A stretch of DNA of 64,000 nt from an uncultured Pelagibacteraceae bacterium (GTDB taxonomy: Bacteria > Pseudomonadota > Alphaproteobacteria > Pelagibacterales > Pelagibacteraceae), in contig CACIVM010000001.1 in NCBI GenBank assembly GCA_902590115.1, positions 1-64,000 of the forward strand. The letters are read 5' to 3'. Made by a program: the position numbers and the translations under genes. The notes beneath the pieces are model-generated. The model was not told the DNA's origin and did no database searches. It saw only the letters and a list, made by a program, of their open reading frames with translations. This document shows, one piece after another, positions 6,065 to 37,695 of the stretch (position 1 is its first letter; every line of letters starts with the position of its first letter).

Positions 6065-7092
6065 TAGAAATATTTTTTCAAAATTTTTTTATTTTTTAGT
6101 ATCCATAAATATATATCTCTTGTTATGATATGTATACTTTTATGAGGTGACCAATTGAATGTTTTCTTTAATTTTGTGTTGTCAGTTACGTAATAAGGAA
6201 TATCATAATCTGAGGTCTTAGGTTTTTTTGAAATTTTAAATTTATTTCCTGTGAGATTTTGAGAGATTATTGTTAATTGTTTTAACGAAACTCTGTTTTT
6301 AAGGCCGCCCCCAATATTAAAAGTTTGATTAAATTTCTTAGAAATTGAATTAATTTGTTTAAGTATTATTTCACAAACATCATCTATATGAATTATATCG
6401 CGAATCTGGTTTCCCAATCCACCATAACCAATATATGACAAATCTTTTTTATAAATATGTCTTGCAATCCAAAGAGAAACAAATCCCTGATCTTGTTTTC
6501 CAAATTGCCAGGGTCCTGAGATTACCCCAAATCTATTAATAATATACTTTATTTTAAAAATGTAACTAAACTCTCTAATCAAATCTTCAGAGGCTTTTTT
6601 GGTTAATCCGTAAATAGATTTAGGTGAATTTGTGCTAAATTTTTCACTAATACTTTTTCTTATTTTAATTTTACTTAATATTTTTTGTTTTCTTATTAAT
6701 TCTCTTAATCTTTTAATCGAGTATACTCTACTCGAGGATAAAAAAATTATTTTTGATTTATCTTTTAAGACTTTTTTTAAAATATTATAGGTACCAATTA
6801 AATTTGTATGTATTACCCTATCAGGATTTTTTCTTGAAATTTCAATTGCAGCCTCTGCACAGCAATCAATTATTATATCAAATTTTTTTAGTCTAAGAAT
6901 TTGTTTCTGATTTTTGATATCTATCTTGTAGTTTTTTATCTTATTTTTTTTAAGTCTTTTTAGGTTAATTTCAGATCCTTTTCTGTATAAATTATCTAAC
7001 GATGAAATTTTTGCATTATTTAACTTATTTTTTAAAAAGATAGCTAGATTTGAGCCAACAAAACCGCATCCCCCTGTAATAAGTATTTTCAT
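6064..7092 (-). CDS. NAD-dependent epimerase/dehydratase (extended SDR)
   Basis: MKILITGGCGFVGSNLAIFL Rossmann motif, YGLTKKASEDL active-site YxxxK, NRFGVISGPWQFG. Confidence 0.8.
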   Translation of the reverse strand: MKILITGGCGFVGSNLAIFLKNKLNNAKISSLDNLYRKGSEINLKRLKKNKIKNYKIDIKNQKQILRLKKFDIIIDCCAEAAIEISRKNPDRVIHTNLIGTYNILKKVLKDKSKIIFLSSSRVYSIKRLRELIRKQKILSKIKIRKSISEKFSTNSPKSIYGLTKKASEDLIREFSYIFKIKYIINRFGVISGPWQFGKQDQGFVSLWIARHIYKKDLSYIGYGGLGNQIRDIIHIDDVCEIILKQINSISKKFNQTFNIGGGLKNRVSLKQLTIISQNLTGNKFKISKKPKTSDYDIPYYVTDNTKLKKTFNWSPHKSIHIITRDIYLWILKNKKILKKYF

Positions 7093-7134
7093 AGGTGTAT
7101 AATTATCATATTAATTGTCATATAAATCGGAATT

Positions 7135-7848
7135 ATGCTTTCAATTTTAATACCAGTAAGGAATGAGTACGAAAATTTAGACAAAATTGAAAGCATTTTT
7201 AGTAAAAAATTTGATGTCACAGACTTTGAGGTCTTAATTATAAATGATTTTAGTACAGATGATACACTCAAGAAAGCTAAGGAATTATCTATAAAAAATA
7301 ATAAATTTAAAACTCTTGATAATAAGGTTAAGGGGTTAGGCGGTGCAATCTGCCAAGGCATAAGAGAGGCAAAAGGCGAATTCACATGTATTATGATGGC
7401 TGATTTTTCAGATAGTTTAGATGACTTAAAAAAATATTTAGATACAATCCGTTCTCAAAATTTAGATGCAGTATTTGGATCAAGATTTATTAAAGGTTCT
7501 AAATTAGTAGATTATCCAAAAAAAAAATTAGTACTTAATAGAATATTTAATTATTTAGTAAAAATTTTATTTTTAAGTAAATATAATGATTTTACTAATG
7601 CTTTTAAGATTTACAAGTCAAACGTTCTAAAAAGTTTTTTACCTTTGATATCGGAAAGTTTTAATATTTTTTTAGAAATTCCCCTGAAGATAATCACACG
7701 AAATTATAATTATATTATTATCCCAATAAGTTGGCAAAATAGATCTAAAGGCGAAGCAAAATTTAATATTAAAGAATTGAGAGCAAAATATCTTTTTACT
7801 TTAATTTATTGTTTTATAGAAAAAATTTTGTTAAAAAAGAAAAAATGA
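7135..7848 (+). CDS. glycosyltransferase family 2
   Basis: LSILIPVRNEYENL, VLIINDFSTDDT, MMADFSDSL typical GT2 motifs. Confidence 0.85.
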   Translation: MLSILIPVRNEYENLDKIESIFSKKFDVTDFEVLIINDFSTDDTLKKAKELSIKNNKFKTLDNKVKGLGGAICQGIREAKGEFTCIMMADFSDSLDDLKKYLDTIRSQNLDAVFGSRFIKGSKLVDYPKKKLVLNRIFNYLVKILFLSKYNDFTNAFKIYKSNVLKSFLPLISESFNIFLEIPLKIITRNYNYIIIPISWQNRSKGEAKFNIKELRAKYLFTLIYCFIEKILLKKKK

Positions 7849-7928
7849 AGATTTCTTTAAAAAATTCTGTTTATCTATTTTTTTTAATTATTATCATAAT
7901 ATTGCTTACATTAACATTTATTTTATAG
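7845..7928 (+). CDS. tiny hydrophobic ORF (27 aa), ATGA-coupled to the GT2 gene
   Basis: MKISLKNSVYLFFLIIIIILLTLTFIL*; start overlaps the upstream stop (ATGA); too short to be sure. Confidence 0.3.
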   Translation: MKISLKNSVYLFFLIIIIILLTLTFIL

Positions 7929-8681
7929 ATAAGCATACAACAATAAAATTATTCCAATAATTAACCTATAAATAACAAAGACAAGAAGGCTGAACTTTTT
8001 AATGAATTTTAAAAAATATTTTATAGTCAAGTACGAAATTATAAATGAACCAATAATTGAAAGTAAATTTAAACTTGTTACCTCATAAACTTTACTTTGA
8101 TAAAGATTAAAAAAACCATAACAACTTACAGCAAAAAGAGTTGGTATTGAAAGTAAGAAGGATATTTTTGCAGACTCGTGCCTATCAAAATTTAAGAATC
8201 TAGCAGCTGTAATTGCAATACCAGATCTACTTACCCCTGGTATAATTGACAAACAATGAACAATACCTATGAACATAGCAGACCCAAAATTAAAATCGGT
8301 TTCAATTTTTTTCTCCATTTTAAATTTATCACTTAAATATAAAAATATTCCAAATCCAAAAGTAGTCCAACCTATAGTTTTAAGATTTCTAAAAATATCA
8401 ACTAAATCAAATTTAATAAATAAAAATCCAAAAATCATCACAGGCAGGGAAGACAAAAAAATCAAATAAAAAAGTTTTTTATATTGTAAAAAATTAAATA
8501 TCTCTTGTCTAAAAAATGTTAAGACTGCTAAAAATGATCCTATATGCAAACTTATGTCGGTTAATAGATTTTTTTGTGATAAGTTTAAAAATTTATTTGC
8601 TATTATTAAATGTGAAGAAGAACTTATGGGTAAAAATTCAGTAACTCCTTGAATTAAAGATAGGATAAATATCTCAAACAT
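7923..8681 (-). CDS. uppP: undecaprenyl-diphosphate phosphatase
   Basis: SLIQGVTEFLPISSSSHLII and SIIPGVSRSGIAITAARFL motifs. Confidence 0.95.
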   Translation of the reverse strand: MFEIFILSLIQGVTEFLPISSSSHLIIANKFLNLSQKNLLTDISLHIGSFLAVLTFFRQEIFNFLQYKKLFYLIFLSSLPVMIFGFLFIKFDLVDIFRNLKTIGWTTFGFGIFLYLSDKFKMEKKIETDFNFGSAMFIGIVHCLSIIPGVSRSGIAITAARFLNFDRHESAKISFLLSIPTLFAVSCYGFFNLYQSKVYEVTSLNLLSIIGSFIISYLTIKYFLKFIKKFSLLVFVIYRLIIGIILLLYAYL

Positions 8682-21816: not shown

Positions 21817-24212
21817 TTTTGACAATTTCCTGGTTAAAAAATCATTTAAAAACTTCAGCTAGCTTAGATGATATTATTGACAAACTTACAAAAATTGGGC
21901 TTGAGGTTGAAGGAATAAAAGATAGTTCAGGAGCTATCTCAGAATTCAAAATTGCAAAAATTTTAAAAACTGAAAATCATCCGAATGCTGATAAACTCAA
22001 AATTTGTGATGTTAGCATTGGGGGGTCTTTAGTAGTAAAAGTTGTATGTGGGGCCAAGAATGCTAGAAGCGGATTAATAACTGTCTATGCACCTCCAGGT
22101 GCAATAATCCCAAAGACAAAAATGAAGTTGAAGGTTGCTAAAATTAGAGGCGTAGAGTCCAAAGGTATGCTTTGTTCTGAAAGCGAACTAAATTTATCTA
22201 ATGAGAACGCTGGTATTATAGAGCTCAAGAATAAGGATGTAAAAATAGGGAAAAGTTTTTTCAAAAGTCCTGGAGAAAAAGCAATAGATCTTTCGATCAC
22301 TCCTAACCGCCCAGATTGTTTGGGTGTGAGAGGTATAGCCAGAGACTTAGCTGCTGCGGGAGTAGGCAGATTAATAAAATTGAAGACAAGTAAATTTAAG
22401 CAAGTAAGTAATCAAAGTATTAAAGTCTCTATAACTAAAGAAAAAAACCAAGGTTGCCAAGCATTTGCAAGCTGTCTTATTAAAGGAGTAAAAAATCAAG
22501 AAAGCCCTAAATGGTTAAAAGATAAAATTCAATCTTTAGGACTTAAGCCTATTTCAGCTATTGTTGATATTACCAATTACGTTATGTTTGATTTAAATAG
22601 ACCTTTACACGCTTATGATGCAGACAAAATTAATAAAGAAATTATAGTGAGAAACTCAAAAGACGGCGAGTCATTTTCTGCTTTAGATGATAAAAAATAT
22701 ATTCTAAAAAAAGATATGTGTGTTATCGCAGACAAAAGCGGTGTATTGGGTCTAGGAGGTATAATTGGTGGCACTAGATCGAGTACAGAATTAGAAACTA
22801 AAAATATTTTGTTAGAATCAGCTTATTTTAACCCAGCATCTATTCGAAAAACCGCAAAAACTCTAAGTATTGAAACAGATGCAAAGTATAGATTTGAGAG
22901 AGGTATAGACCCAAATTCCATGATTGATGGGTTAAAATTAGCCACAGAATTAATCTTAAAAATATGTGGTGGAGTGGCAAGTAAATTTTCTATTTCTGGA
23001 AAAAAAAATTATAAAAACAAGTCTATAAATCTTAATTCTGAGAAATTTAAGAAAGTAATAGGCCTAACTATACGAGAGAGCGAAACTAAGAAAATTTTAG
23101 GGAATCTCGGATTTAATACTAAATCTAGTAAGAAAATTTTTAAAGTTAAGATACCTACTTGGAGACCAGATGTAAGTCAAGATATAGATTTAGTAGAAGA
23201 ATTAATCCGTATCAAAGGATTTGATAAAATTGATTTCATAGAACCTGAAAAAATGAGAACTAAAGAAACACTAAACTTCCATCAGAAATTATTTCATTTA
23301 AGTCAAAGATGTGTTTCAAACAAAGGGTATCATGAGGCTGTGACATGGTCTTTTACTGATCAAAAAATTGATGAATTAATTAATGATGATAAAAATTTTA
23401 TTTCTATATTAAACCCTATTTCGAAGGACCTAAACGTTTTAAGAAGATCAATTTTTTCAAATTTACTTTTTTACTTAAAAAAAAATCATGATAGAGGCTT
23501 CCAGGATATTGCTTTATTTGAGATTGGTCCAATTTTTTATGGAAAAAAACCTGGAGATCAACAAATTGTGATTGGAGCTGTAAAATCCGGGCAATTGAAT
23601 AAAAAAAGTTGGTCAGAAAAAACAAGAAATGTAGACATATTCGATATGAAAACAGATGTAATTAAAACTTTAAAAGAGATAGGAATAAAGGAAGATGAAA
23701 TGTTTGTAAGCGATAAAACAAAAAATTGTTACCACCCAGGAAGATCTGGATCTGTCAATTTAAATTCAATGAACGGTCCTATTATTGCTCGATTTGGCGA
23801 GATCCATCCATCTATAATTTCAAAACTAGATTTTAAAGAAAAAAATATTTACGGATTTGAAATATTCTTAAAAAATATTCCAGAACCAGAGAAAAAGTTA
23901 AGAATTTCCAAAGAAAATTATGTTTTTTCTGATTTTCAAATTTCCGAAAGAGACTTTGCTTTTGTCCTAGACAAAAATTATCAAGTAGGGAAATTAGATA
24001 AGATTATCAGAAATTTAGATAAAAATATAAAATCGGTAGACATTTTTGATGTTTTTCAAGGGGGAAATTTACCAGATAATAAAAAATCAATAGCTATTAA
24101 TGTTTCAATACAGTCAGATAAAAAAACCCTTTCAGACAATGATCTAAACCAAATTAGTGAAAAGATTATTAAGGAAGTTGAAAATAAAACCGGCGGAAAT
24201 ATTAGGTCATAA
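21813..24212 (+). CDS. pheT: phenylalanyl-tRNA synthetase beta subunit
   Basis: [30 protein letters not shown], tRNA-binding domain, [26 protein letters not shown]-terminal anticodon-binding fold. Confidence 0.97.
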
Positions 24213-26023
24213 TGTCAGATATAGATAGAATACGTAATTTCTCAATAATTGCGCATATTGATCATGGAAAATCAACTATTGCTGATAGAATAATTCATAA
24301 ATGTGGTGGTCTGACTGAGAGGGAAATGAAACAACAAGTTCTTGACTCAATGGATATTGAGCGAGAAAGAGGAATAACGATAAAGGCGCAAACCGTAAAG
24401 CTAAATTACAAGTCTAAAGACGGTAAAACATATACACTAAATATAATTGATACACCTGGCCATGTAGATTTTGGTTATGAGGTAAGCAGGTCTTTATCTG
24501 CTTGTGAAGGATCTTTGTTGATTGTAGATAGTACACAAGGTGTAGAGGCTCAAACATTAGCAAATGTATATCAAGCTCTAGAAATTGATCATGAGGTTAT
24601 ACCAATTCTAAATAAAATAGATTTACCAGCCTCAGATATTGATAAAACAAAAAAAGAGATAGAAGATGTAGTTGGTATCGACACATCAGGTGCTATTCCA
24701 TGCTCTGGAAAAACTGGAGAGGGAGTTAATGATATTTTAGAGTCAATCATAAACAATTTGCCACCTCCAAAAGGAAATAAAAACGAAAAGCTAAAATGTC
24801 TTTTGGTCGATAGTTGGTATGACAGTTATCTAGGAGTTGTAATCTTAGTAAGGGTAATTGATGGTAAAATTAAAAAGAATATGAAAGTAAAATTAATGTC
24901 AAATAATCAAGATTACGAAATAGAAAAAGTTGGTGTATTTACACCTAAACCAATAGATATTCAGGAGCTTAACTCAGGTGAAATAGGATTTATAATTACT
25001 GGAATAAAATCATTATCCGAAACAAAAGTTGGAGACACAATTTGTGATGCAAATGATCCTATAACTAAACCTTTACCAGGATTTAAACCTAGTAAGCCCG
25101 TGGTATTCTGTGGACTATTTCCAGTTGATAGCTCTGAGTTTCAAAAACTCAAAGATGGTTTAGCAAAACTAAAGTTAAATGACGCAAGTTTCTCTTACGA
25201 ACCTGAGTCCTCAAGTGCACTTGGTTTAGGTTTTAGATGTGGATTTTTAGGTTTGCTCCACCTGGAAATTATTACAGAGAGGTTGGAGAGAGAATTTGAT
25301 GTAAATTTAATCACCACAACTCCAGGGGTAATTTATAAAGTATATAAAAATAACGGAGAAACCATAAATTTACAAAATCCTACTAACATGCCAGACCCTT
25401 CGCAAATCGCTAAGATTGAAGAGCCTTGGATCAAGTCTACCATCATAACGCCTGACGAATATTTAGGATCTATTATAAAAATTTGCCAAGACAAAAGAGG
25501 GATACAAACTAACTTAAGTTATTCAGGTAAACGAGCTGTTTTGTCCTACGACCTTCCTTTAAATGAAGTCGTATTTGATTTTAACGATCGTCTTAAGTCG
25601 GTTTCAAGCGGATATGCAAGTTTTGATTATGAAATTTCTGATTACAAGGAAGGAGCACTTGTGAAGCTTGGAATACTTGTAAATGGAGAGCCTGTTGATG
25701 CATTAGCAATGATAATACATAAAGATTTTGCTCAGAAGACCGGACGTCAAGTATGTGAAAAATTAAAAGATTTAATTCCAAGGCACAATTTTATGATACC
25801 TGTACAAGCGGCAATAGGTGGCAAAATTATAGCAAGAGAGTCAATTAAAGGTTTTAAAAAAGATGTTTTAACAAAGATACATGGTGGAGGAGCCATGGAT
25901 AGAAAAAGAAAATTACTTGAGAAACAAAAAAAAGGTAAGGCCAGAGCAAAACAATTTGGGAAAGTTGAAATACCCCAAGAAGCTTTTATCGGAGTATTAA
26001 AAATAAATAAGGAGAATAATTGA
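24212..26023 (+). CDS. lepA: elongation factor 4
   Basis: [59 protein letters not shown]. Confidence 0.97.
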
Positions 26024-26874
26024 GTATTTTCAAGGAAAGCATTCTTGTCCTAGGGGGTACTGGATTTATTGGAAGAAATTTAATTAAATCGCTAAAAAAA
26101 AAATACAAAATTAGCTCGATATCATTAAATCAAATTTTAAAAGAAAAAAAATGTAGTGGTGTAAAGTATAAAAGATTGGATTTAAGAAAGAAGAATAATA
26201 TTAAAAAGATAAAAAAAAATTACGATTATATTATAAATTGCTTAAGCTTTAACAGAAATCAAAAAATATTTAATTTTTTTTTAAAATTTAAACCACAAAA
26301 ATTTATACACATCGGCTGCTCCGGTGAATACGGAAAAATTAAAGTGCCATTTAAAGAAAGCGACAAATGTTTACCAAAAACAAATTATGGATTATCTAAA
26401 CTATTTGATACAATGTATTTATTAAATCTTTATAAAAATTTTAAATTTCCTGTTGTTATAGTTAGGTTATTTAATGTCTATGGAAAAGATCAAGGCAGGT
26501 ATATAATCTCAGAAATAGTGTCAAATTGTAAAAAAAATAATGTTATCAATTTAGCTAATGGCAGTCAAACTAGAGATTTTTGTCACATAAATGATATTTC
26601 AAAAGCAGTAAATTTAATTATTCGCAGCAAAAATAAGAGATTGATTGGTAAAATACTTAATATTTCAACTGGAAAAGAAACTTCCATAAGGAGTCTATCA
26701 AGAATTATCTTAAGAAAAGTTAAAAAAGGAAAAATTAATTTTATAAAAAGGGATTTAGATAAGAATAGTATTTTAAGAAGCAGGGCGGACATAAAATTAT
26801 CAAAGAAACTTCTAAATTGGAGACCTAAAATAGATATCTTAAGAGGAATCGACTTAACAATTTATGGAAAATAA
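26020..26874 (+). CDS. NAD-dependent epimerase/dehydratase (TTG start as listed)
   Basis: [52 protein letters not shown]. Confidence 0.8.
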
Positions 26875-27889
26875 AAAAAATCTATACATAATTTCTAATG
26901 AGAAAATTTCCAAGATTAACGGAGAGTATTTTTGTGATAATTTAGATATGAAATCTACGTCAGAAGGATTAGATCAAGAATACGATGTTCATATTATTGC
27001 GAGGTATTCTAAAACAGATAGATCTCATAGAATTAAGATGAAAAATATTAAAATATCTAAAACTTTACCGGATTTTTTAAAAAATGTTTGCAATTTTAAT
27101 AAACTAAAAAAAAATAAATTTTTAATCATCTCAATTACGCCATATACTTTTCTTGCTAATGTAATTTTAAGATTATTAGGAAATAAACCATTTGTATACT
27201 TAAGGAGTGATGGTTATGGGGAATATAAGTCTATTCTTGGTTTTTTAGGTCCCATATTTTATCATTTTATGTTTGAAATTACTGCGAAAATATCAAATTT
27301 TATAAGTTGTAGAGAGCATATTCTTAGAGGTAACAAAGGTAAAGTAATTTACCCATCTCAGTTAAATTCGACTTGGTTTTTAGATATAAAGACAATTAAC
27401 ATTAAAGAAACTAAACTTTTGTATGTGGGAAGAGTAAAAAAAGAAAAAGGAATTTTTTCATTAGTTAATCTTTTAAAAGATAAAAAAGATATTAGCCTAA
27501 CTATAGTGGGAGAAGAAAAAAATCAAAAAAATATTATACAAGAAAATGTTAAAGTTTACGAGATAGAGGATGACACAAAAAATTTGATAAAATTTTATGA
27601 TGATCATAATATATTCGTACTACCATCATTTACAGAGGGTCACCCCATGGTAGTATTAGAGTCCCTTGCAAGACTAAGACCAGTGATCATTTTTGAGGAT
27701 ATTGAACATATTATTGAGAATAAAAAAGGCATTTTTGTATCCAAAAGAGATAAAGAAAGCTTCTTTAAAAAAATTGAGTATATCAAAAACAATATAAATA
27801 AAATTCAAGAAGAGATGAAAAAAAATAAGCTACCTAAAAATGAGGAATTTATTAGAGACTTAGCTCGATCTATTTCTAACTTGAATTAA
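26864..27889 (+). CDS. glycosyltransferase group 1 family
   Basis: [47 protein letters not shown]. Confidence 0.8.
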
Positions 27890-27895
27890 AGAAAA

Positions 27896-27985
27896 GGAGA
27901 GGTGGCCGAGTGGTTGAAGGCGCACGCTTGGAAAGCGTGTAAACGGGAAACCGTTTCGAGGGTTCGAATCCCTCTCTCTCCGCCA
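27896..27985 (+). tRNA. tRNA-Ser(GGA)
   Basis: Acceptor GGAGAGG/TCTCTCC, anticodon stem CACGC/GCGTG with loop TTGGAAA, long variable arm, T-arm GGTTCGAATCC, encoded CCA. Confidence 0.94.
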
Positions 27986-27991
27986 TAGAGT

Positions 27992-28522
27992 ATGAAAAAT
28001 ATTATTGAAAGATACCCAGTAAAATATCCAGTTTACTTTAAATATGAAAACAAAATATTTAGTATTGAACCGAAAATATTATGCAAAAAGTATAATTGTC
28101 ACAAACTTATAAAAATACATAAAGATGAATTCAAGTACATTTATAAAAATAAAAAATTATTAACGCATTTTAATATTCAAGATAATGGGCACAGACCTAA
28201 AAAAAATTACTTGATAGTAAAAATTATTAAACCAGGTTACTTAAGTAAAAAAATAAACAAACCACCTATTTTAGATCTTAGAGAAACCTATTTAGCAAAA
28301 TGTTTTTACTCAAAAAGTTATGTTTCGTATAATCAACTAAAAGATGAAATTTTCAAACATAGCATGAATAATATCAAATCAGTTAAAGATCTTAAAAAAA
28401 TTATTTTAAAAAGATATAGGTTTAGTCTTGCAGATATTTCGAGTTCAAAAAAAATATCTTTAGGCGTCGCAATTACAAAATTACAGTTAATTAAAAGATT
28501 TAAAGAAATTAAATTATTTTGA
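27992..28522 (+). CDS. uncharacterized basic protein (176 aa)
   Basis: Complete ORF directly downstream of tRNA-Ser; no recognised motif. Confidence 0.6.
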
Positions 28523-28524
28523 TG

Positions 28525-29199
28525 TCAAAAATTTTTATTCTTATAAAGAATATCTTGAAAGTGGAAACTTGGAAAAGTAAATTTTTTAATTATATAAAAA
28601 TTATTTTTTTTTAAATAATTTCCTGCCTTTTCTTTTCGTTTGTAAAGATTAAATAATTGTTTTTCTATCATTATAAATTGTATATTTTTGATTTTTTTTC
28701 CTAAGCCTCGTAATACTTCATACTCGTGACCTTCCACATCTATTTTAATAAAGCAGTTTTTTAAATCTTCCTCTTTTAAAAATTTTTCAATCCTTTTTGT
28801 TTTTAAAATTATTTTTTTTTCAATAGGATTTTTTGAATTTAACAAAAAGTTTTTAAAAATAGTATAAAAATTTTTTTTATTTATAGTTTCAAAAGTAGAT
28901 GTCGAGGATAATTTATTCAATTTAAAAACTCTTTTTTTGTTCATATTGCTCACAGCTTGATTAAAAAGTTTTATTCTAGAATTAGATTTAAATTTGTGTT
29001 TTAAAATTTCAAATGGAATTGATTGAGGTTCAAAAGCCAAAATTTTTCTTATTTTTTTTTTTTTAATGAAATAGTCTAAAAACTCACCTTTATGACTTCC
29101 AACATCTACTAATGTAACAATCTTAAATTTTTTACAGTAATAAAATACACGGTTTAGGTGAATTTTATTTAAAGTATTAAATATTTTTTCAAAAATCAT
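28525..29199 (-). CDS. FkbM family methyltransferase
   Basis: VTLVDVGSHKGEFLDYF, ILAFEPQ, CFIKIDVEGHEYEVLRG. Confidence 0.87.
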   Translation of the reverse strand: MIFEKIFNTLNKIHLNRVFYYCKKFKIVTLVDVGSHKGEFLDYFIKKKKIRKILAFEPQSIPFEILKHKFKSNSRIKLFNQAVSNMNKKRVFKLNKLSSTSTFETINKKNFYTIFKNFLLNSKNPIEKKIILKTKRIEKFLKEEDLKNCFIKIDVEGHEYEVLRGLGKKIKNIQFIMIEKQLFNLYKRKEKAGNYLKKNNFYIIKKFTFPSFHFQDILYKNKNF

Positions 29200-29277
29200 T
29201 TTAAATCAAATTTTTATTTATCAACATATAACTAATATAGGATTTAATTTTTTAACACGAATCAATTAAAATACAAA

Positions 29278-29309
29278 TGAGGTAACAGAGGGAGACTTAT
29301 GTTACCTCA
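29278..29309 (-). terminator. candidate intrinsic terminator after the TauE/SafE-like gene
   Basis: Perfect 9-bp stem TGAGGTAAC...GTTACCTCA, 14-nt loop, followed on the minus strand by TTTGTATTTTAATT. Confidence 0.45.
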
Positions 29310-29317
29310 CTCTCTAA

Positions 29318-30031
29318 TCATCTCAAATTGCTAAAAAATATATAAACTCCATAAATAAGAGTAAATAGGTTCAAAATTTTATAAAATAAAATGTTTTTTA
29401 TTTTTTTAAAAATAAACTGTGAGGTAAAATAAATAAGTATCGGGATCCATAAAAATTGTAAGTATTCAAAATTCATTCTTACAAAAAAAACATTCACAAC
29501 TAGGATTTGAAAGGAGGCAAATAGAAAGTATCCTGTTGCAATATTATTTCTTATTAAAAATTTATCCTTATTAACGTTTGAAGCTATTATGGACAACAAA
29601 GTACCGCCTAAATTACTTAAACCATGAACAAGCCCCAGCATTATCAACGCAATATTAAGATTTTTTATCTTAAATCTTTCTTTTCTTAAATTCATCAAAT
29701 TGATTATTGAGAAAGTAATCAAAACAAAGGATATAAAAAATAAAAAATTAATATTTTCTAAAAGATAATTTACAATTATAAGACCTAAAATTAATGTTGG
29801 AATACTGTATTTTAAAATTTGTAAACCAAAACCCAACATTTTATCTTTGTTAAAAATAATTTGTAGTACACTTATTAAGATTGAATAAGGTAATAAAATA
29901 TTTAAAACTTCAAAATAATTATATCCTAAAAGCAAAAAGGTAGGTGTTCCAAGCAACAACAATCCAACTCCAAAGATTGATTGGATTAAAGAAAATAAAC
30001 TTATAAATAAAACTTCGATTAATAGCATCAA
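29318..30031 (-). CDS. TauE/SafE family sulfite exporter-like membrane protein
   Basis: About eight TM segments; ALIMLGLVHGLSNLGGTLLSIIAS resembles the family repeat. Confidence 0.7.
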   Translation of the reverse strand: MMLLIEVLFISLFSLIQSIFGVGLLLLGTPTFLLLGYNYFEVLNILLPYSILISVLQIIFNKDKMLGFGLQILKYSIPTLILGLIIVNYLLENINFLFFISFVLITFSIINLMNLRKERFKIKNLNIALIMLGLVHGLSNLGGTLLSIIASNVNKDKFLIRNNIATGYFLFASFQILVVNVFFVRMNFEYLQFLWIPILIYFTSQFIFKKIKNILFYKILNLFTLIYGVYIFFSNLR

Positions 30032-30060
30032 AATTATTGATATATCTAATTTATAAATAA

Positions 30061-30774
30061 TTACAAGATTTCAATACAGGCTTGTCTAGTTCCAAATGCA
30101 ATAAATTTATACTCACTTTCATTTAATGTATCGTTCAAAGCTTTAAACTCTGACTCTCTCCAATGAGGATAACTATGAAGTTGGTCGAATAAAATTATAG
30201 TGCCTTTTTTTAAAAAAGGTTTCATAGTTTTTATGGCAAAAGCAGTTGAATTATAAGTATCCATATCAAAATGAATAAATACAATTTTATCTTTTTTTCC
30301 ATCAAGAAAATTAGGTAAAGTATTTTCAATCCAACCGTCAATCAGCTTTGCATTTTTTTTAACATTAGGTAATTTTTTGTTCAGATTAAAAGTACCTTTC
30401 GGCATAAAAACTGAACTCATCCAATCATCTTTTAATCCGATGAATGAGTCAAAACCATAAATTATAGCATTTGATTTATTTAATTTCTCCGCAAAAAAAT
30501 TCAAAGAAAGTGCTTTCCAAACTCCAAATTCAATAAATAAATCCCCGTCATCCCTTTTTTTTATTGCTTCATTAATAGCAAAACCTCTTATTGATTCATC
30601 GTCTGAAAAAACATAACTTTTTTTAAAATGTTCTTTAAAATGATTGTAACAATCTTTTGCTAGCTCTTCATAATGTATATCAACTGGACTTTTTGGTTGA
30701 AGGCTTATTTTAGCTTTATCACTAAAAAAATTAATCATTTTTTTGTAAAAATATAAAAATATTTTTTTAATCAT
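30061..30774 (-). CDS. TylF/MycF-like class I SAM-dependent methyltransferase
   Basis: GDLFIEFGVWKALSLNFFAEKL, IYGFDSFIGLKDDW, KDKIVFIHFDMDTYNSTAFAIKTMKPFLKKGTIILFDQL. Confidence 0.78.
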   Translation of the reverse strand: MIKKIFLYFYKKMINFFSDKAKISLQPKSPVDIHYEELAKDCYNHFKEHFKKSYVFSDDESIRGFAINEAIKKRDDGDLFIEFGVWKALSLNFFAEKLNKSNAIIYGFDSFIGLKDDWMSSVFMPKGTFNLNKKLPNVKKNAKLIDGWIENTLPNFLDGKKDKIVFIHFDMDTYNSTAFAIKTMKPFLKKGTIILFDQLHSYPHWRESEFKALNDTLNESEYKFIAFGTRQACIEIL

Positions 30775-31553
30775 GTTACTGAACCTCTCCGTTTGAAAAT
30801 TCTTAAAATTTTAAGAATTTTTTCTACTAGAACATTTAAAAACTTGTAAAAAATTCCGTTATTAATTTTTAATATTGCCTGGTTAAATGTGATTATTCTT
30901 ATGGAATTTTTCTCTATAAAGTTACTAAATTTTTTGAAATCTTCTTCATCCCATCCATTTATATGTATTTGGGTTGATTGTATGCCAAAAGGCAAAATTA
31001 ATAATTTGTAGAAAAGCTGAGGAAAAAAATTAAGTCCCATCTTAGTGTAAGGCATTAATCCATATCCATCTATAATATTAATTATGCCACATTCTTTCAA
31101 AACTTTAAGAGTATTAAAATCATATGTATGATTAGGCGCAAAAAAGGATCTAACTTTAATTTTCTCTTCATTGAATTTTTTTAAAGCTTTTTCAACTTTT
31201 TCTTTTTGCTCTTCATAACTCAAACCATAAAATTCGGAATTACCACCATAGCCAAATATATCTTTTTTTTTTACCACCTGTTTGTACACGTGTGAGTATC
31301 CATGAATTGAAATTTCCCATCCTTTATCACTCCAACTTTTCACCTTTTTCCAGAAGCTCTCGTTTTCTGGAAATAATTTGAGAGAGGTGTCCTGGTTATC
31401 CGCTATAATACCCATGATTGGTTTTATGTTGTGCTTGTCAAACAAAGTTTCACACTTATCCATCATATCCCAGTTCATATTTTTAGCTATATCGTCAAGT
31501 CTAATTACTAAACCAGTATTTTGAGAAATAAATTTTTTTATGTTATTAAGCAT
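30771..31553 (-). CDS. polysaccharide deacetylase-like protein (DUF2334-like)
   Basis: LVIRLDDIAKNMNWDMMDKCE, WEISIHGYSHVY, RSFFAPNHTYDFNTLKVL. Confidence 0.72.
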   Translation of the reverse strand: MLNNIKKFISQNTGLVIRLDDIAKNMNWDMMDKCETLFDKHNIKPIMGIIADNQDTSLKLFPENESFWKKVKSWSDKGWEISIHGYSHVYKQVVKKKDIFGYGGNSEFYGLSYEEQKEKVEKALKKFNEEKIKVRSFFAPNHTYDFNTLKVLKECGIINIIDGYGLMPYTKMGLNFFPQLFYKLLILPFGIQSTQIHINGWDEEDFKKFSNFIEKNSIRIITFNQAILKINNGIFYKFLNVLVEKILKILRIFKRRGSVT

Positions 31554-31624
31554 ATTAAATTAAGGTCTTTTAATATAACAAAAAAAAATATTTATTAAAA
31601 GAGAAGAGAATAATTTTAAAAGAA

Positions 31625-32716
31625 ATGTCTTTAAGACTGCTAAAAACAAAAATAAAAGATTACAACAAGATTAAATCTCTGTTTAAAAGAAATAATCTGA
31701 ATTTTATGAGTAAAGATACTTGGCTCAATTTTCGTAATAATCCATTTTTAAAAGAAAATAAAAAAATCGACTTAGGTTGGAAATTTGAGTCAGGAAATAA
31801 AATTGTAGGGCATATCGGATATTATCCAACTATATATAGATATAACAGTAAAAAAATAATTTGCTCCATTTTACATGGTTGGGCTGTCGATGAAAAATAT
31901 AGATCAATATCGGTTATTCTTTTGAAAAAATATCTAAATCAAAAAGGAAAAGATTTATTTTTAGGAACTACTTTTAATAGTCATACGGGGCAAATTATGG
32001 AGTCTTTAGGGATAAATCAAGTTCCAATCGAAGGTTTAGACAAATCATCAATTTTAATTTTGAACCCAAAAAATTTTTTAGAAATGTATTTTCAAAAAAA
32101 AAAAATATTACTTAAAAGCTTTTTCATAAATATAATTTCTAAAATAACCAAAATTTTTTTATGGAGAAATATTAATAGGTGGAAAAATTATGAGGTGAAT
32201 CATGTTGTGAAAAGAACTAAAAATTTTGATAAGAAATTTAAACACTTCTGGGATAATTACTTGAGAGAAAATAAGCAAAGTTTGCAAGTCGATCGTGATA
32301 TAAAGTGGCAAAATTGGATTATGAAAAAAAAACTTATTAGTAACCAGATTATAATTTTTGTAATTTCGAAAAATAGCAAAATAGAGGGATACAGCGCATG
32401 CTTAATAGAAAAAAAAGGTAAATATAGAATATATAAACTTCTAGACCTTCTAACTTTGAAAAAAAGTAAAGAGCTCGAATTTGATTTGGTTTTAAAAAAC
32501 CTAAAGCAAGCTAATGATATTAATTGTGATTATTTTGAGTATAGGAACACATCAGAGTCAAAGCTCAAAGTTTTGGAAAATTTTTCAGCAATTCAAATTA
32601 AGTTGAAACAAAATAATTTTTACTATAAAGCAAGCAATAGTAAATTAAATAAAATCTTTGACACAAATAAAAATTGGGACCCTTGTAGCCTAGACGGAGA
32701 TATTTTGATAAGATAA
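31625..32716 (+). CDS. GNAT-like acyltransferase
   Basis: IVGHIGYYPTIYRYNSKKIICSILHGWAVDEKYRSISVILLKKYL resembles the GNAT core. Confidence 0.6.
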   Translation: MSLRLLKTKIKDYNKIKSLFKRNNLNFMSKDTWLNFRNNPFLKENKKIDLGWKFESGNKIVGHIGYYPTIYRYNSKKIICSILHGWAVDEKYRSISVILLKKYLNQKGKDLFLGTTFNSHTGQIMESLGINQVPIEGLDKSSILILNPKNFLEMYFQKKKILLKSFFINIISKITKIFLWRNINRWKNYEVNHVVKRTKNFDKKFKHFWDNYLRENKQSLQVDRDIKWQNWIMKKKLISNQIIIFVISKNSKIEGYSACLIEKKGKYRIYKLLDLLTLKKSKELEFDLVLKNLKQANDINCDYFEYRNTSESKLKVLENFSAIQIKLKQNNFYYKASNSKLNKIFDTNKNWDPCSLDGDILIR

Positions 32717-32720
32717 ATAT

Positions 32721-33011
32721 ATGAATGCAACAGAAATAATCAAAGAATCAATTAAAAAAATTAATTTACAATTAAAAAAAAAGGATAAAATAGTTTATGA
32801 CAAAAACTATCAAATATTCGGACCTAAAAGCAAGTTAGACTCTTTAATTATAGTTAATTTGTTTATTGAAATAGAAAATAATATAAAAAAGCAATCAAAA
32901 AAAGAAATAAATTTATTTAGTGATAATTTTTTTGAGAGAGGTTTTAAATTTAAATACTTCATTAGTAACTTAGAGAAAGATATTAACAAGAAAATAAAAA
33001 AAATTAAATGA
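32721..33011 (+). CDS. discrete acyl carrier protein
   Basis: KLDSLIIVNLFIEIENNI with canonical DSL phosphopantetheine site (Ser41, codon 32841-32843); 96 aa, directly in the FkbH operon. Confidence 0.75.
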   Translation: MNATEIIKESIKKINLQLKKKDKIVYDKNYQIFGPKSKLDSLIIVNLFIEIENNIKKQSKKEINLFSDNFFERGFKFKYFISNLEKDINKKIKKIK

Positions 33012-33934
33012 TGTTACAAAAACATAAAAATTTTAATTCTATCGTATCCAAAGTGATTACTCAGTCTAGCACACAAAAAAAAAAAATTGAAAGATTAATA
33101 AGTAAACAAAACAAGATTTATTTTGATAGGGCTGAAGATTTTTCAAAAAAATTTATCAAGTATTTAAAAAATGAAAAAGTTCCACTTAAATATGCCATAA
33201 ATTCTTACTTAAAGCTCTGTTTTGATATGTTTGAAAGTCACAAATACTTCATGAAATATAATAGGTATCCTTTAGCTGACGAAAAAGATGCGTATAAAAA
33301 AGTTTACGATAATATAAAAGTAATGAAAAGTTACATGTTTGGTGTGGCGATATCACAATTTTTATGGTCCACGCATTATGCCATGTACTCATTTTTTATA
33401 AAAAATATTACTAAATCTAACCTCAAAATTAAAAATTATTTAGAGGTTGGCTCTGGACATGGACTATTTTTCTTAAAAGCTTTAGAGAATTTAAGAGAAG
33501 ATACTAAATTTGATATTGTTGATATTAGTTCAACATCTATTAAAATTACCAAATCAGTAATTAACTTTTTTTATAAAGGGGAAAGAGACATTAATTATTA
33601 TAAAAAAAATGTTTTTGATTATAAGCCTAATGAAAAATATGATTTTATTACACTTGGTGAAGTTTTGGAACATGTTAATAATCCAAAGAAACTATTAAAA
33701 CAGTTACATTTTTTATTAAATCCAAATGGAAGAGTGTACATGTCAACTTGTGTTGACTGTCCAAGTATTGATCATATTTATCACTTTAAATCTATCGGCG
33801 AAATAGAACAACTTATTAAAAAATCAGGCTTTAAGATAGTAAGAAGAAATATTCTGCCGGTTGAGGAAAAACCGATGAAAGAAATTGTAAAAAATAAAAT
33901 TACAATCAATTATTGTGCATTACTTAAAAAATAA
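33008..33934 (+). CDS. class I SAM-dependent methyltransferase
   Basis: YLEVGSGHGLFFLKALENL, DFITLGEVLEHVNNPKKLLKQLHFLLNPNGRVYMST; overlaps the ACP stop. Confidence 0.85.
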   Translation: MMLQKHKNFNSIVSKVITQSSTQKKKIERLISKQNKIYFDRAEDFSKKFIKYLKNEKVPLKYAINSYLKLCFDMFESHKYFMKYNRYPLADEKDAYKKVYDNIKVMKSYMFGVAISQFLWSTHYAMYSFFIKNITKSNLKIKNYLEVGSGHGLFFLKALENLREDTKFDIVDISSTSIKITKSVINFFYKGERDINYYKKNVFDYKPNEKYDFITLGEVLEHVNNPKKLLKQLHFLLNPNGRVYMSTCVDCPSIDHIYHFKSIGEIEQLIKKSGFKIVRRNILPVEEKPMKEIVKNKITINYCALLKK

Positions 33935-33937
33935 TAT

Positions 33938-35596
33938 ATGAAAAAAAATATAAGCTTTTTATCAAGCTTCAATATTCAAAATTTACATAATTATTTGATA
34001 TCAAACCTAGAGAAAGATATATACAGTATAAAAAAACCAGAGTTTGGGTCATTTTACGATATCGCCTTCAAAAATATAAAAAGTAAAAAAAACGACTATC
34101 TCTGTGTAGTTTGGACTCAGATAGAATATTTAGTCAGGGGTTTTAATAAACTAATTTTTTATCAAAATATAGATTTAAGAGAATTAATAAAAGAAACAGA
34201 CCAATATATAAATATTTTAAAACAACTGGCGAAAAAAAATGATCATGTTTTAGTTTTTTCATGGGTGTTACCCGATAATGAAACTGGAAAATTTTTAAGA
34301 GATTTCACTGACTCAAATGGCTTAATTAAAAATGTTAATTTTTTAAATTTAAAAATTGCAAATGAGCTAAGAGATATTAAAAATATTTACTTAATTAATT
34401 CTGACAAAATCATAAGTAAAAATAATTCTGACTTTAATCCAAAATATTGGTATTCGGCTAAAATTCCATATTCTCAAAAAGTTTTTCAGCATGCAGCTTA
34501 TGAAATTTCAAATATTTTAAATTTGTTTTTAGGTAAGAATATTAAGCTAATAATTCTTGATTTGGATAATACGATTTGGGGTGGAAATTTAGGAGATTTA
34601 GGTTGGGAAAAGATTACTCTAGGAGGTCACAGTATGCTTGGGGAGGCATTTAGAGATTTTCAAAAAAAACTCAAATCATTAACTAATCTAGGTGTTCAAT
34701 TGGCAATAAGCAGCAAAAATGATGAGAAGAATGTTTTAGAAGCTTTAGAAAGAAATGAGGAAATGGTTTTAAAAACAAAAGATTTTGTGACTTGGAAAAT
34801 AAATTGGGAAGATAAAGCAAAAAATATAAAAGAGATAATAAAAGAATTAAATTTGTCTCAAGAAAATATTTTATTTTTAGACGACAATATTAGAGAGAGA
34901 ATGAGAGTTAAAAGTTCTCTTAAGAAAGTCCAGGTACCTGATTTACCGAATGACCCTTGTAATTTTTCAAAGTTTCTCTCAGAAAAAGGTTACTTTAACT
35001 TTAACACTACTATTACACTAGAGGATCATAACAGACTTAAATTTTACAAAGATGAATTCAAAAGAAAGAAAAATAAAGAAAATTTTATATCAGAGGATAG
35101 TTGGCTAAAATCTCTACAAACAAAAATAACTTTTCAAAAAATTAATGAAAATAATAAAGATAGAATTGTGCAGCTCCTGTCTAGAGTTAATCAAATGAAT
35201 TTAACTACTAGGCGGATTACTCATAAAGAATTGGATAAATTGAAAAAAAATAAAAAGAATCAATTGCTGTCATGTACATTAAAAGACAAATATGGTGAAA
35301 TGGGTATTGTAGGTTTTTTTAATATTGAAATTAATAATGATAAGTGTCTAGTTAAAGACTTATTGTTAAGTTGTAGAGCTTTTGGCAGAAGTGTAGAACA
35401 AAGTATGATCCTGAAAATAATCGAGATTTTAAAAACAAAAAAAATCAACTTATTAGAACTTAAGTATATTAAGACAAAAAAAAATAAACCATGTCTTACT
35501 TTTCTAAAAAAGAATTTTAATGAGGTTAAAAAGAATACGTTTCAATTAAAAAATTTTAAAAATTTTAGGATACCAAAGTATATTTCTATTAACTAA
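33938..35596 (+). CDS. FkbH-like HAD phosphatase/acyl-transfer protein
   Basis: LIILDLDNTIWGGNLGDLGWEKITLG (DxDxT), AISSKND, NILFLDDN, C-terminal GNAT-like region LLSRVNQMNLTTRR...CRAFGRSVEQ. Confidence 0.88.
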   Translation: MKKNISFLSSFNIQNLHNYLISNLEKDIYSIKKPEFGSFYDIAFKNIKSKKNDYLCVVWTQIEYLVRGFNKLIFYQNIDLRELIKETDQYINILKQLAKKNDHVLVFSWVLPDNETGKFLRDFTDSNGLIKNVNFLNLKIANELRDIKNIYLINSDKIISKNNSDFNPKYWYSAKIPYSQKVFQHAAYEISNILNLFLGKNIKLIILDLDNTIWGGNLGDLGWEKITLGGHSMLGEAFRDFQKKLKSLTNLGVQLAISSKNDEKNVLEALERNEEMVLKTKDFVTWKINWEDKAKNIKEIIKELNLSQENILFLDDNIRERMRVKSSLKKVQVPDLPNDPCNFSKFLSEKGYFNFNTTITLEDHNRLKFYKDEFKRKKNKENFISEDSWLKSLQTKITFQKINENNKDRIVQLLSRVNQMNLTTRRITHKELDKLKKNKKNQLLSCTLKDKYGEMGIVGFFNIEINNDKCLVKDLLLSCRAFGRSVEQSMILKIIEILKTKKINLLELKYIKTKKNKPCLTFLKKNFNEVKKNTFQLKNFKNFRIPKYISIN

Positions 35597-36332
35597 ACCT
35601 TTTACAACTTTTTACTTTTAATTTGGCAGTTTTTTGAATTCTTTCTATTGTTTTTTTTATATCCATAACAATAGTTTTTTTCTTAGGACCATAAGCATGA
35701 ATTAAATTTTTTTTAGATAAAATTATAGCAACATGACCTTTCCAGAAAATTAAATCATTTTTTTTTAATTTTTTTAAATCAATTTCTCTCTTTACATATT
35801 TTTCTTGATCTTTCGCATCTCTAGGGAAAAAAATTTGATTAAAATTAAAAAATATTTGAACTAAACCAGAACAGTCAATACCTTTATAAGATTTGCCACC
35901 CCATTTATATTCAACATTTTTAAATATTAAAATTTTTTTAAATATATCTTTTTCTTTAAATTTAATTGGTTTGATATCTTTTTTATTAACCCAACCTTTC
36001 TCAAATTTATAATAACCTAGCTTTTTGTTAGTTACCTTAATCATAGATCCAAAAGATAATTTTAAGCTTATTTTTTTTTTATTTGGGTTTTTATAAATAT
36101 TTGCTTTAAGTTTATAAATTTTATGACTAGGTGTGATTAAATTAGAATATTTTTTCTTTTTAACAAAGCCAATATATCCATCACTTTTTATTTTTATTTT
36201 ATACCAAGATCTTTTTTGGCTTAAGATTTTAAAATGATCTCCATAAATCATTTGTGTAACTATTTCAGATTTTCTTGATGCCTTTTTATGTAAATTTGTT
36301 GTAACAAAATTATTTGTGAACGTTTTAGTCAT
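35589..36332 (-). CDS. SH3-domain plus NlpC/P60 family cell-wall hydrolase
   Basis: Bacterial SH3-like repeats then YKWGGKSYKGIDCSGLVQ, KNDLIFWKGHVAIIL. Confidence 0.82.
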   Translation of the reverse strand: MTKTFTNNFVTTNLHKKASRKSEIVTQMIYGDHFKILSQKRSWYKIKIKSDGYIGFVKKKKYSNLITPSHKIYKLKANIYKNPNKKKISLKLSFGSMIKVTNKKLGYYKFEKGWVNKKDIKPIKFKEKDIFKKILIFKNVEYKWGGKSYKGIDCSGLVQIFFNFNQIFFPRDAKDQEKYVKREIDLKKLKKNDLIFWKGHVAIILSKKNLIHAYGPKKKTIVMDIKKTIERIQKTAKLKVKSCKRFS

Positions 36333-37695
36333 TTATCTTAATCTTATTTTTTATTAGATACAAAAAAATTAAAGATGGGATAACCATTATAGCAGTGATG
36401 ATGAAAAATATTCCCCAATCACCATTTAACCAATCTACTAATGCCCCTGAGGATGCAGCAAGCGTAGTTCTTCCAGCTGTTCCAATAGAAGCAAGTAATG
36501 CATACTGAGTGGCTGTATAGTTTCGATCCACAAGCATTGATATAAATGCTACAAAAGCAACTGTTGCAAAAGCTGCAGCAATATCATCAAATATAACAGC
36601 AACAGCAAAAAGTAACTCAGACTTACCACTCCAAGCTAAAATAGAAAATAATAAATTAGTAGATGCCATTAAAATTCCTGAAACAAACATTGCTGTAATA
36701 ACTCCGGATCTAATAGCAAACAATCCTCCTAATAGAGTAAAAACTACAGTAGTAACCCAACCTAGACCTTTGGAATAAAGAGCAATATCTGTTTTAGTGA
36801 ATCCTATTTCTTTATAAAATATTACGGACATTCTACCTAAAAAAGCTTCACCAATTTTAAATAAAAAAACGAATCCAAGAATAGCGATTGCAATTTTTAA
36901 ACCATTTTTTTTAAAGAAACTAACAATAGGACTTACTACGGTGCTTGTTATCCATACTGTGGATCTAGTTAAAAAATTTTGTGAATTAAATTTTATAGAT
37001 AACACTCTGTCATTTTCTGTCTGAGCTCTTTCTCTATCAGTTTGTATTTCTTTTACAAATAGAAGTAGTGCATTGCAAAGTATTATGATTAAACATAAAA
37101 TTAAAAAAGTAATTTGCCAGTAATTTAAAAATCCCATTGATTGAAAAAAATCTGCAGTTTTTAAAGAGATAACTCCTCCCAATTTATAACCTGTCCACCA
37201 ACCAACAACTGCCATGGCAGCTCCTGCTTGCATCGATTTTCCCTCATTCTCTCCAATTTGCTCAATACGAAGAGCGTCTACTGTTATATCTTGCGTTGCA
37301 GAGGCTGTAGCTATAACTAGACCAATCAAAATTACTAATGCTAAATTTTTTGTAGGATCAATAAAACTCCACATTACCAGACTAGTTAAAATTATTGATT
37401 GCATAGCAATTATCCAGGCTTTTCTATGTCCAATTTTTTTTGTTAACCATGGTATTTGTAATCTATCGATTAATGGTGCCCATAAATAATTAAAAGCATA
37501 AACGCCGAAAATTAAACCTGCCCATCCAATAGTGCTTCTGCTAAGATTATTTTCTTGTAACCAAATACTTAAACTACTTCCAATTATTACCCAAGGGAAA
37601 CCACTTATTGCGCCCAATAAAAGAATTTTGAGCATTCGTTTATCAAAATAAATTGAAAAGCTTTCAGATAGAGTGATTTTTTTTTGTATGTCCAT
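36325..37695 (-). CDS. ampG: AmpG-like MFS muropeptide permease
   Basis: ISGFPWVIIGSSLSIWLQENNLSRSTIGWAGLIFGVYAFNYLWAPLIDR, ATASATQDITVDALRIE. Confidence 0.85.
   Translation of the reverse strand: MDIQKKITLSESFSIYFDKRMLKILLLGAISGFPWVIIGSSLSIWLQENNLSRSTIGWAGLIFGVYAFNYLWAPLIDRLQIPWLTKKIGHRKAWIIAMQSIILTSLVMWSFIDPTKNLALVILIGLVIATASATQDITVDALRIEQIGENEGKSMQAGAAMAVVGWWTGYKLGGVISLKTADFFQSMGFLNYWQITFLILCLIIILCNALLLFVKEIQTDRERAQTENDRVLSIKFNSQNFLTRSTVWITSTVVSPIVSFFKKNGLKIAIAILGFVFLFKIGEAFLGRMSVIFYKEIGFTKTDIALYSKGLGWVTTVVFTLLGGLFAIRSGVITAMFVSGILMASTNLLFSILAWSGKSELLFAVAVIFDDIAAAFATVAFVAFISMLVDRNYTATQYALLASIGTAGRTTLAASSGALVDWLNGDWGIFFIITAIMVIPSLIFLYLIKNKIKIND

Follow-up and report, generated by a model that had tools for sequence, protein, structure and literature searches.

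Within the 64,000-nucleotide stretch of Pelagibacteraceae DNA analysed here (the window), a compact locus may be a cassette for ACP-dependent acyl exchange on an amino sugar of the cell surface, a reading of the gene content to which we give an even chance. According to this model, FkbH would transfer the three-carbon glyceroyl unit of the glycolytic intermediate 1,3-bisphosphoglycerate onto a stand-alone ACP, where the FkbH-linked methyltransferase, perhaps together with a second, TylF-like one, would O-methylate it. A cytoplasmic DUF2334 deacetylase would free the amine of an amino-sugar precursor by taking off its N-acetyl group, and a tandem-GNAT protein would pass the ACP-borne (O-methyl)glyceroyl group to that amine. 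A variable surface glycan of the SAR11 cell would thereby come to contain an N-(O-methyl)glyceroyl amino sugar. From the parts present we infer all of the catalytic steps, which sugar is the substrate, when methylation occurs and that the ACP is the donor to the GNAT protein.

Gene content, motifs, the GNAT fold and the gene pairings (FkbH-ACP, GNAT-ACP, GNAT/ACP-deacetylase and methyltransferase-FkbH) were computed here. The cassette lies in a hypervariable slot between lepA and NlpC/AmpG (24212..37695). Four genes on the + strand, all with open frames, encode the tandem-GNAT acyltransferase (31625..32716; 363 aa), the stand-alone ACP (32721..33011; 96 aa), a SAM methyltransferase (33008..33934; 308 aa) and FkbH (33938..35596; 552 aa). 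They are spaced by 4 nt, −4 nt (an ATGA overlap) and 3 nt, in agreement with the tight packing reported in the initial annotation. The boundary of the cassette had, however, been drawn too narrowly around these four genes. A DUF2334/NodB-type deacetylase gene (30771..31553, − strand; 260 aa) and a TylF/Methyltransf_24-like O-methyltransferase gene (30061..30774, − strand; 237 aa), which overlap each other by 4 nt, abut the quartet and had been missed. The deacetylase gene adjoins the GNAT gene in divergent orientation, and the 71-bp intergenic region (31554..31624) is presumably a shared promoter region. The GC content is low, about 0.25 for the cassette and 0.18 for the ACP gene. This, and the uniqueness of the quartet, would fit horizontally acquired DNA that is decaying or non-functional, but with open frames, intact catalytic motifs and translational coupling all kept we consider decay extremely unlikely.

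FkbH matches TIGR01686 with 250 bits (cut-off 147) and PDB 3slr with an E-value of 4e-40. The protein comprises an N-terminal region, a HAD-IIIC domain and a C-terminal transferase-like region; its motifs DLDNT (208–212), SKN (259–261) and DD (315–316) are conserved across relatives and intact, as had been noted for DLDNT. Formation of glyceryl-ACP from 1,3-bisphosphoglycerate by FkbH and a stand-alone ACP has been proposed for tetronate/PKS pathways (PMC7489565), and the window FkbH is predicted from its sequence to make glyceroyl-ACP from the same compound. An ACP gene is located within 1.3 kb of FkbH in all 18 evaluable Pelagibacterales FkbH loci, and the pattern is also present in annotated regions of Paroceanicella, Maritalea, Rahnella and Niveispirillum. 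FkbH with a discrete ACP and no PKS, the arrangement described initially, is thus a recurrent one in glycan islands. FkbH matches in G018, G019 and G052 were discarded as short, frame-broken or partial.

The ACP contains a phosphopantetheine site, KLDSL, with Ser41 as the serine, and its AF2 model (pLDDT 85) is helical, Asp40-Ser41 opening helix 41–59. No Pfam model, PF00550 (PP-binding) included, matched the window ACP. Its best two Foldseek matches are carrier proteins but not significant (E 0.33 and 2.1), and a Pfam carrier-protein match is reached by members of its family, e.g. the relative in L021 (21.5 vs 20.8 bits). The site, the helical model and the family matches together uphold the assignment as a discrete carrier protein with an intact LDSL site. 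Profile comparison showed long and short ACPs to be weakly related. An ACPS-type PPTase was not found in the assembly, which is 64% complete. These last points, and the missing family and fold matches of the window ACP itself, count against the model.

The cassette methyltransferase matches Methyltransf_23 (PF13489; 66 bits) and is a member of an FkbH-associated family. It is not an FkbM-type O-methyltransferase, the kind named in the initial annotation for PKS/tetronate pathways; the FkbM-type gene is a separate one at 28525-29199. Among 397 genomes of the family, two contain this methyltransferase family, both together with FkbH: the window genome and G751, where the nearest homologue (41–42%, full length) lies beside FkbH-ACP. 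Homologues were absent from the other 395. Weaker relatives adjoin FkbH in L016, L021 and the Paroceanicella locus L059. The position of the closest homologue within an FkbH-ACP cassette bears out the earlier grouping of the methyltransferase with FkbH. The TylF-like protein (PF13578, 40 bits; PF05711, 30 bits) has homologues beside GNAT-ACP in L034 and near FkbH-ACP in L084, and a second methylation step is a possible role for it.

No Pfam or NCBIfam family model matched the GNAT protein. Its AF2 model (pLDDT 73, pTM 0.72) is a tandem GNAT of NMT/Eis-like fold, the best Foldseek match is NMT (E 2.7e-12) and the C-terminal DGD is conserved. The fold is common to N-myristoyltransferase and the Eis acyltransferases, from which the window protein differs in sequence (11–14% identity), in the lack of a CoA/peptide context and in its adjacent ACP gene. 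In all four complete Pelagibacteraceae cases the ACP gene lies directly downstream of GNAT, so that the suggested tie between the GNAT-like protein and the ACP is supported by adjacency, and in three of the four DUF2334 lies beside GNAT. The family also adjoins Polysacc_deac_1 genes at three Bacteroidota loci; these Bacteroidota relatives have no ACP neighbour, a point against the model. Plasmids and viral contigs yielded no relatives of the GNAT protein. Matches in G147, G267, G197 and G200 were discarded as short, frame-broken or partial, and the idea that a 171-aa ORF preceding ACP-FkbH in L018 is a GNAT fragment was rejected, this ORF matching the C-terminal end of a MaoC-like protein from L088. 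An AprA-like methyltransferase is encoded beside GNAT-ACP in L033 and L035. The link to a PKS loading module hinted at by this gene was dropped, as no PKS parts lie alongside.

The deacetylase matches PF10096 (129 bits) and PF01522 (32 bits), both above cut-off, with the metal-binding DD and HxxxH conserved; the assembly has one other polysaccharide-deacetylase gene. Because there is no space for a signal peptide ahead of motif 1 it is probably cytoplasmic, and it is probably the partner which exposes the amine for acylation. DUF2334 has GNAT/ACP neighbours in L033 and L035 and ACP/KASIII neighbours in L137 and L161. Alternatively, the GNAT protein might esterify a sugar hydroxyl with glyceroyl, DUF2334 being an unrelated trimming enzyme. 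MBOAT/AlgJ-like proteins, normally ester makers, are indeed paired with FkbH-ACP or acyl-AMP ligase-ACP at the same slot elsewhere. However, the GNAT fold usually acylates amines and the deacetylase-GNAT adjacency recurs in both Pelagibacteraceae and Bacteroidota, and we regard O-acylation as unlikely.

In relatives, the lepA–NlpC/AmpG slot is 0.9–12.5 kb long. Among 53 complete, unselected slots (two loci picked for content were left out), four contain an ACP, each with a loading enzyme; DUF2334 occurs in two slots, both among these four. The exact GNAT-ACP-methyltransferase-FkbH quartet has no second occurrence outside the window, and we therefore view it as a composite of a DUF2334-GNAT-ACP unit and a methyltransferase-FkbH unit. 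Hence the expected co-occurrence of the four families without a PKS holds for the pairings FkbH-ACP, GNAT-ACP and methyltransferase-FkbH, which recur, and not for the full set. At the same slot, G063 has DUF2334-KASIII-methyltransferase-ACP-GNAT (294 aa) and G030 has KASIII-KR-ACP-264 aa with a divergent DUF2334; no assignment to GNAT was reached for the 264-aa protein in L161. In a sister genus, G269 and G621 contain ACP-FkbH-310 aa-(VOC)-tandem-GNAT cassettes, whose GNATs are distant profile relatives of the window protein, a C-terminal GDGD included. Profile comparison gave no support for the 310-aa ‘IFDDTD’ protein (L058, L082) as a NodB relative, leaving a motif resemblance only, and this too counts against the model. 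Sister-genome cassettes at the same slot appear to use other acyl groups and other transferases.

Since the GNAT-ACP-DUF2334 unit exists without FkbH in G265, G054 and G063, the window ACP could bear a different acyl group, with FkbH as a passenger. The locus would then consist of two independent neighbours. DUF2334, GNAT and ACP would carry out a modification whose acyl group is loaded by other enzymes (e.g. fatty-acid enzymes), and the methyltransferase and FkbH would form a glyceroyl module of their own, making use of this ACP or of a different one. G265 and G054 would fit, as would G269, where a GNAT-ACP pair lies about 38 kb from a distinct ACP-FkbH cassette. We nevertheless consider such independence fairly unlikely, because in the window four co-directional genes at −4 to +4 nt share a single ACP, while all other evaluable FkbH genes of the order lie beside an ACP gene of their own. 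The initial proposal that an ACP-bound C3 unit decorates a surface sugar gains from the recurrent pairings; it had been built on a quartet that proved unique, and with the deacetylase omitted.

Methoxymalonyl-ACP and tetronate units are likewise supplied by a core of FkbH, ACP and O-methyltransferase (PMC7489565, PMC3679948), and the cassette might serve a small diffusible metabolite of tetronate- or methoxymalonyl-like type, made with the help of a PKS or FabH-like enzyme whose gene is absent from the incomplete assembly. A KASIII gene near FkbH in G751 would be in line with this. The operons for methoxymalonyl-ACP or glycerate utilisation (FK520, tetromadurin) share with the window FkbH, a stand-alone ACP and, in the methoxymalonyl case, an O-methyltransferase, but in place of a PKS, FabH-like enzyme or dehydrogenases the window has a deacetylase and a tandem GNAT. 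No FkbI-/FkbK-type dehydrogenases were among the Pfam-scanned cassette neighbours. In the assembly (64% complete genome), the KS model returned no PKS ketosynthase; its matches were confined to one FabF-like gene, which lies on a different contig, and a thiolase that matched weakly. The initial remark had been that the window has no KS/AT domain. Given these results and the location in a hypervariable glycan slot, a diffusible product is very unlikely.

The proposed N-acylation has precedents, and ‘undescribed system’, as the locus was first called, is too strong. Campylobacter jejuni O-methylglyceroyl-amide glycans are known from a locus that includes an FkbH gene (PMC3068675, PMC7099621), among them Pse with a 5-N-(2,3-di-O-methylglyceroyl) group, for which prior deacetylation by Cj1295 was proposed (PMC3068675). 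This flagellin locus (Cj1295; FkbH-domain Cj1302) thus resembles the window in its FkbH gene, in deacetylation proposed to precede acylation and in an O-methylated glyceroyl on a sugar amine, the putative window product. It differs in its flagellin target, in that no tandem GNAT has been reported there (PMC3068675, PMC7099621) and in that Cj1295 is aminopeptidase-like (DUF4910/DUF2172 type), whereas the window deacetylase is a NodB-fold DUF2334. Cj1295-type DUF4910, an AAC(3)-type acyltransferase and FkbH-ACP co-occur in SAR11 L018 and L084; the window slot has neither DUF4910/DUF2172 nor AAC(3) partners. In Pseudomonas syringae, ACP-borne acyl groups are transferred to amino sugars of a surface glycan (PMC3927599). 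The viosamine island (vioS KASIII, vioR reductase, acp, vioB acyltransferase, vioM methyltransferase) has a dedicated ACP, a methyltransferase and an ACP-built acyl group destined for an amino-sugar nitrogen, as proposed for the window. L161 and L137 have KASIII/KR/ACP cassettes at the lepA–NlpC/AmpG slot that resemble this island. The island differs from the window in that its acyl group is 3-hydroxybutyryl, loading is by KASIII, the amine stems from an aminotransferase and transfer is by VioB; KASIII and ketoreductase beside ACP are absent in the window and present in L161. ACP-dependent N-acylation of surface amino sugars is accordingly of a known kind, and the window’s combination of parts appears to be unreported.

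With slightly less than even confidence, we extend this to the SAR11 lepA–ampG slot and an rRNA-linked region, which may host combinatorial ACP-based surface acylation. One small ACP would be combined with any of several loading enzymes (FkbH, KASIII alone or together with KR, acyl-AMP ligase) and with transferases that are likewise exchangeable (tandem GNAT plus DUF2334, MBOAT/AlgJ-like, AAC(3)-like), producing fast-changing, plausibly anti-phage acyl decorations, with the window as the deacetylate-then-methylglyceroylate member. If so, SAR11 cells, which are highly abundant in the sea and have few genes, devote about 4–6 kb of a variable island to one acyl change on a surface sugar, and FkbH chemistry would extend beyond polyketides to glycan decoration in marine plankton. 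For the C. jejuni flagellar glycan, where a transfer of glyceroyl from ACP to an amine has been suggested but is poorly understood, the locus would provide enzymes open to testing. It would also yield predicted chemotypes for the opaque surface variation of SAR11, bearing on phage-host specificity.

Plasmid loci of Niveispirillum (FkbH-ACP-WcbI-SDR) and Paroceanicella (ACP-FkbH-methyltransferase) also combine FkbH with ACP and show no PKS among the annotated genes nearby. A WcbI acyltransferase and a methyltransferase are the respective neighbours; neither locus has the tandem GNAT or deacetylase of the window. Plasmid matches to FkbH occur in Streptomyces and Sinorhizobium as well.

The four tightly packed + strand ORFs reported in the initial annotation (GNAT, 31625-32716; ACP, 32721-33011; methyltransferase, 33008-33934; FkbH, 33938-35596) were confirmed, with spacings of +4, −4 and +3 nt. 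The FkbH identity of the last product is certain: it scored 250 bits against TIGR01686 in the NCBIfam profile search, has a PDB relative in 3slr, and the DLDNT motif previously noted is intact together with SKN and DD, all being common to nine relatives in the alignment. The discrete carrier protein (96 aa) does have the LDSL site and gave a confident, helical AF2 model; a Pfam scan returned no match for this protein itself and PP-binding matches for members of its aligned family. The methyltransferase belongs to Methyltransf_23 and not to the FkbM type. An FkbM-type gene (28525-29199, − strand) and a gene for a multi-helix membrane protein (29318-30031, − strand) are present in the same island, apparently outside the ACP cassette. 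The 363-aa GNAT matched nothing in Pfam or NCBIfam; its AF2 model, built from four homologues, is a tandem GNAT (pLDDT 73), with N-myristoyltransferases and Eis-like acetyltransferases as nearest folds in Foldseek. Abutting the cassette and divergent from it is a DUF2334 deacetylase gene (30771-31553); this gene in turn overlaps one for a TylF-like methyltransferase (30061-30774).

The genome assembly comprises 0.73 Mb and is 64% complete. It was assigned to SAR11 because close homologues of the cassette GNAT occur in single-cell genomes and MAGs of named Pelagibacteraceae. The cassette is flanked by lepA-GT on one side and NlpC-AmpG-TrkH on the other. Among relatives this slot varies between 0.9 and 12.5 kb in length and differs in its glycan genes; it is therefore a hypervariable surface island. 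An ACPS-type phosphopantetheinyl transferase, required by both the fatty-acid ACP and the cassette ACP, was not detected in this assembly, which lacks about a third of the genome. A second glycan patch (3845-8681), read from ORF translations alone, encodes a membrane glycosyltransferase-like protein, two SDRs, a GT2 and a UppP-like protein.

The exact quartet was not found again in the sampled genomes. GNAT homologues with 24-31% identity directly precede an ACP gene in genomes G265, G269 and G054; DUF2334 adjoins the pair in G265 and G054, both without FkbH, and a TylF-like gene in G269, where FkbH is 38 kb away. Three Bacteroidota homologues have no ACP, but Polysacc_deac_1 genes alongside. 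In FkbH-free relatives the window-type ACP could bear a different acyl group. AprA-like methyltransferase genes (apratoxin PKS loading module MT2 plus winged-helix; L033:4030-5145, L035:7753-8778, L083:9774-10799) adjoin GNAT-ACP or FkbH-ACP in SAR11, and may determine which acyl group is used where a cassette has no FkbH.

The FkbH closest to that of the window (40% over 536 aa) is from G269. This sister-genus genome and G621 share the order ACP-FkbH-310 aa-(VOC, G621 only)-365/370 aa. Profile comparison relates the 365/370-aa protein distantly to the window GNAT (71% hhalign probability across 109 columns), the HMM match extending through the C-terminal DGD. The 310-aa protein showed NodB-like motifs by eye, for which profile comparison gave no support. 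For the cassette methyltransferase, the only good homologue among 397 family genomes is within an FkbH-ACP cassette (G751); weaker relatives occur beside FkbH in loci L016 and L021 and on a Paroceanicella plasmid.

Other contents of the window's own slot are DUF2334-KASIII-MT-ACP-GNAT (294 aa) in G063, KASIII-KR-ACP-264 aa with divergent DUF2334 in G030, and FkbH-ACP-MT-MBOAT in G048. The lepA-ampG slots of G088 and G020 (L144 and L186) hold acyl-AMP ligase-ACP-MBOAT (+AlgJ-like), with the ligase as a third type of loading enzyme for a discrete ACP in surface acylation. Out of 53 complete slots, chosen without regard to content, four contain an ACP, each with a loading enzyme, and both DUF2334-bearing slots are among these four (hypergeometric 0.004, only indicative since related genomes were counted as independent).

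C. jejuni flagellin bears 5-N-(2,3-di-O-methylglyceroyl) pseudaminic acid, which requires Cj1295; this protein is proposed to cleave the 5-acetamido group, allowing its replacement by a methylglyceroyl (PMC3068675); the flagellin locus includes the FkbH-domain gene cj1302 (PMC7099621). In the viosamine island of P. syringae, 3-hydroxybutyryl is made by KASIII and a reductase with an ACP and is placed on a sugar amine (PMC3927599). The window fits this logic with other parts. In the mechanism that we infer at every catalytic step, DUF2334 would expose an amine, FkbH would charge the ACP, the methyltransferase(s) would methylate and the tandem GNAT would transfer the acyl group. Transfer might instead be O-acylation, since cassettes at this slot are also found with MBOAT partners. 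We conclude that the cassette is probably a variant form of the ACP-dependent systems that decorate surface amino sugars with acyl groups. The initial proposal of an ACP-bound C3 unit, methylated and passed by the GNAT to a surface sugar or small molecule, is supported in part. The gene combination appears unreported within the literature searched; its chemistry can be predicted and put to the test, and what stands out more is the combinatorial slot. A Cj1295-type solution is found within SAR11 in loci L018 and L084, where a DUF4910-type protein and AAC(3) accompany FkbH-ACP; our reading of Cj1295 as DUF4910/DUF2172 type is taken from its 'aminopeptidase-like' description and length.

FkbH is present in 20 of the 397 family genomes. 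All 18 FkbH loci of the order with readable flanks have an ACP gene no more than 1.3 kb away, a count leaving aside three loci at contig ends or adjoining masked sequence. The partners of the pair differ: AAC(3)-like acyltransferases, MBOAT with AlgJ-like proteins, small GNATs, MaoC-like proteins and SDRs. On the Paroceanicella profunda plasmid pD4M1C (L059, 10985-14687), ACP-FkbH-methyltransferase-VOC is followed by MprF, and PKS genes are absent from the 25-kb region; the G621 cassette likewise includes a VOC gene. In two g54 (sister-genus) genomes, a 23S rRNA gene (L083:173-4798; L088:215-2967), with no 5S found nearby, lies just upstream of FkbH-ACP cassettes beginning after 5.0 and 3.2 kb, respectively. 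The cassettes of L085 and L089 are preceded by the same spurious rRNA ORFs, and the arrangement is consistent with a hypervariable region linked to the rRNA genes.
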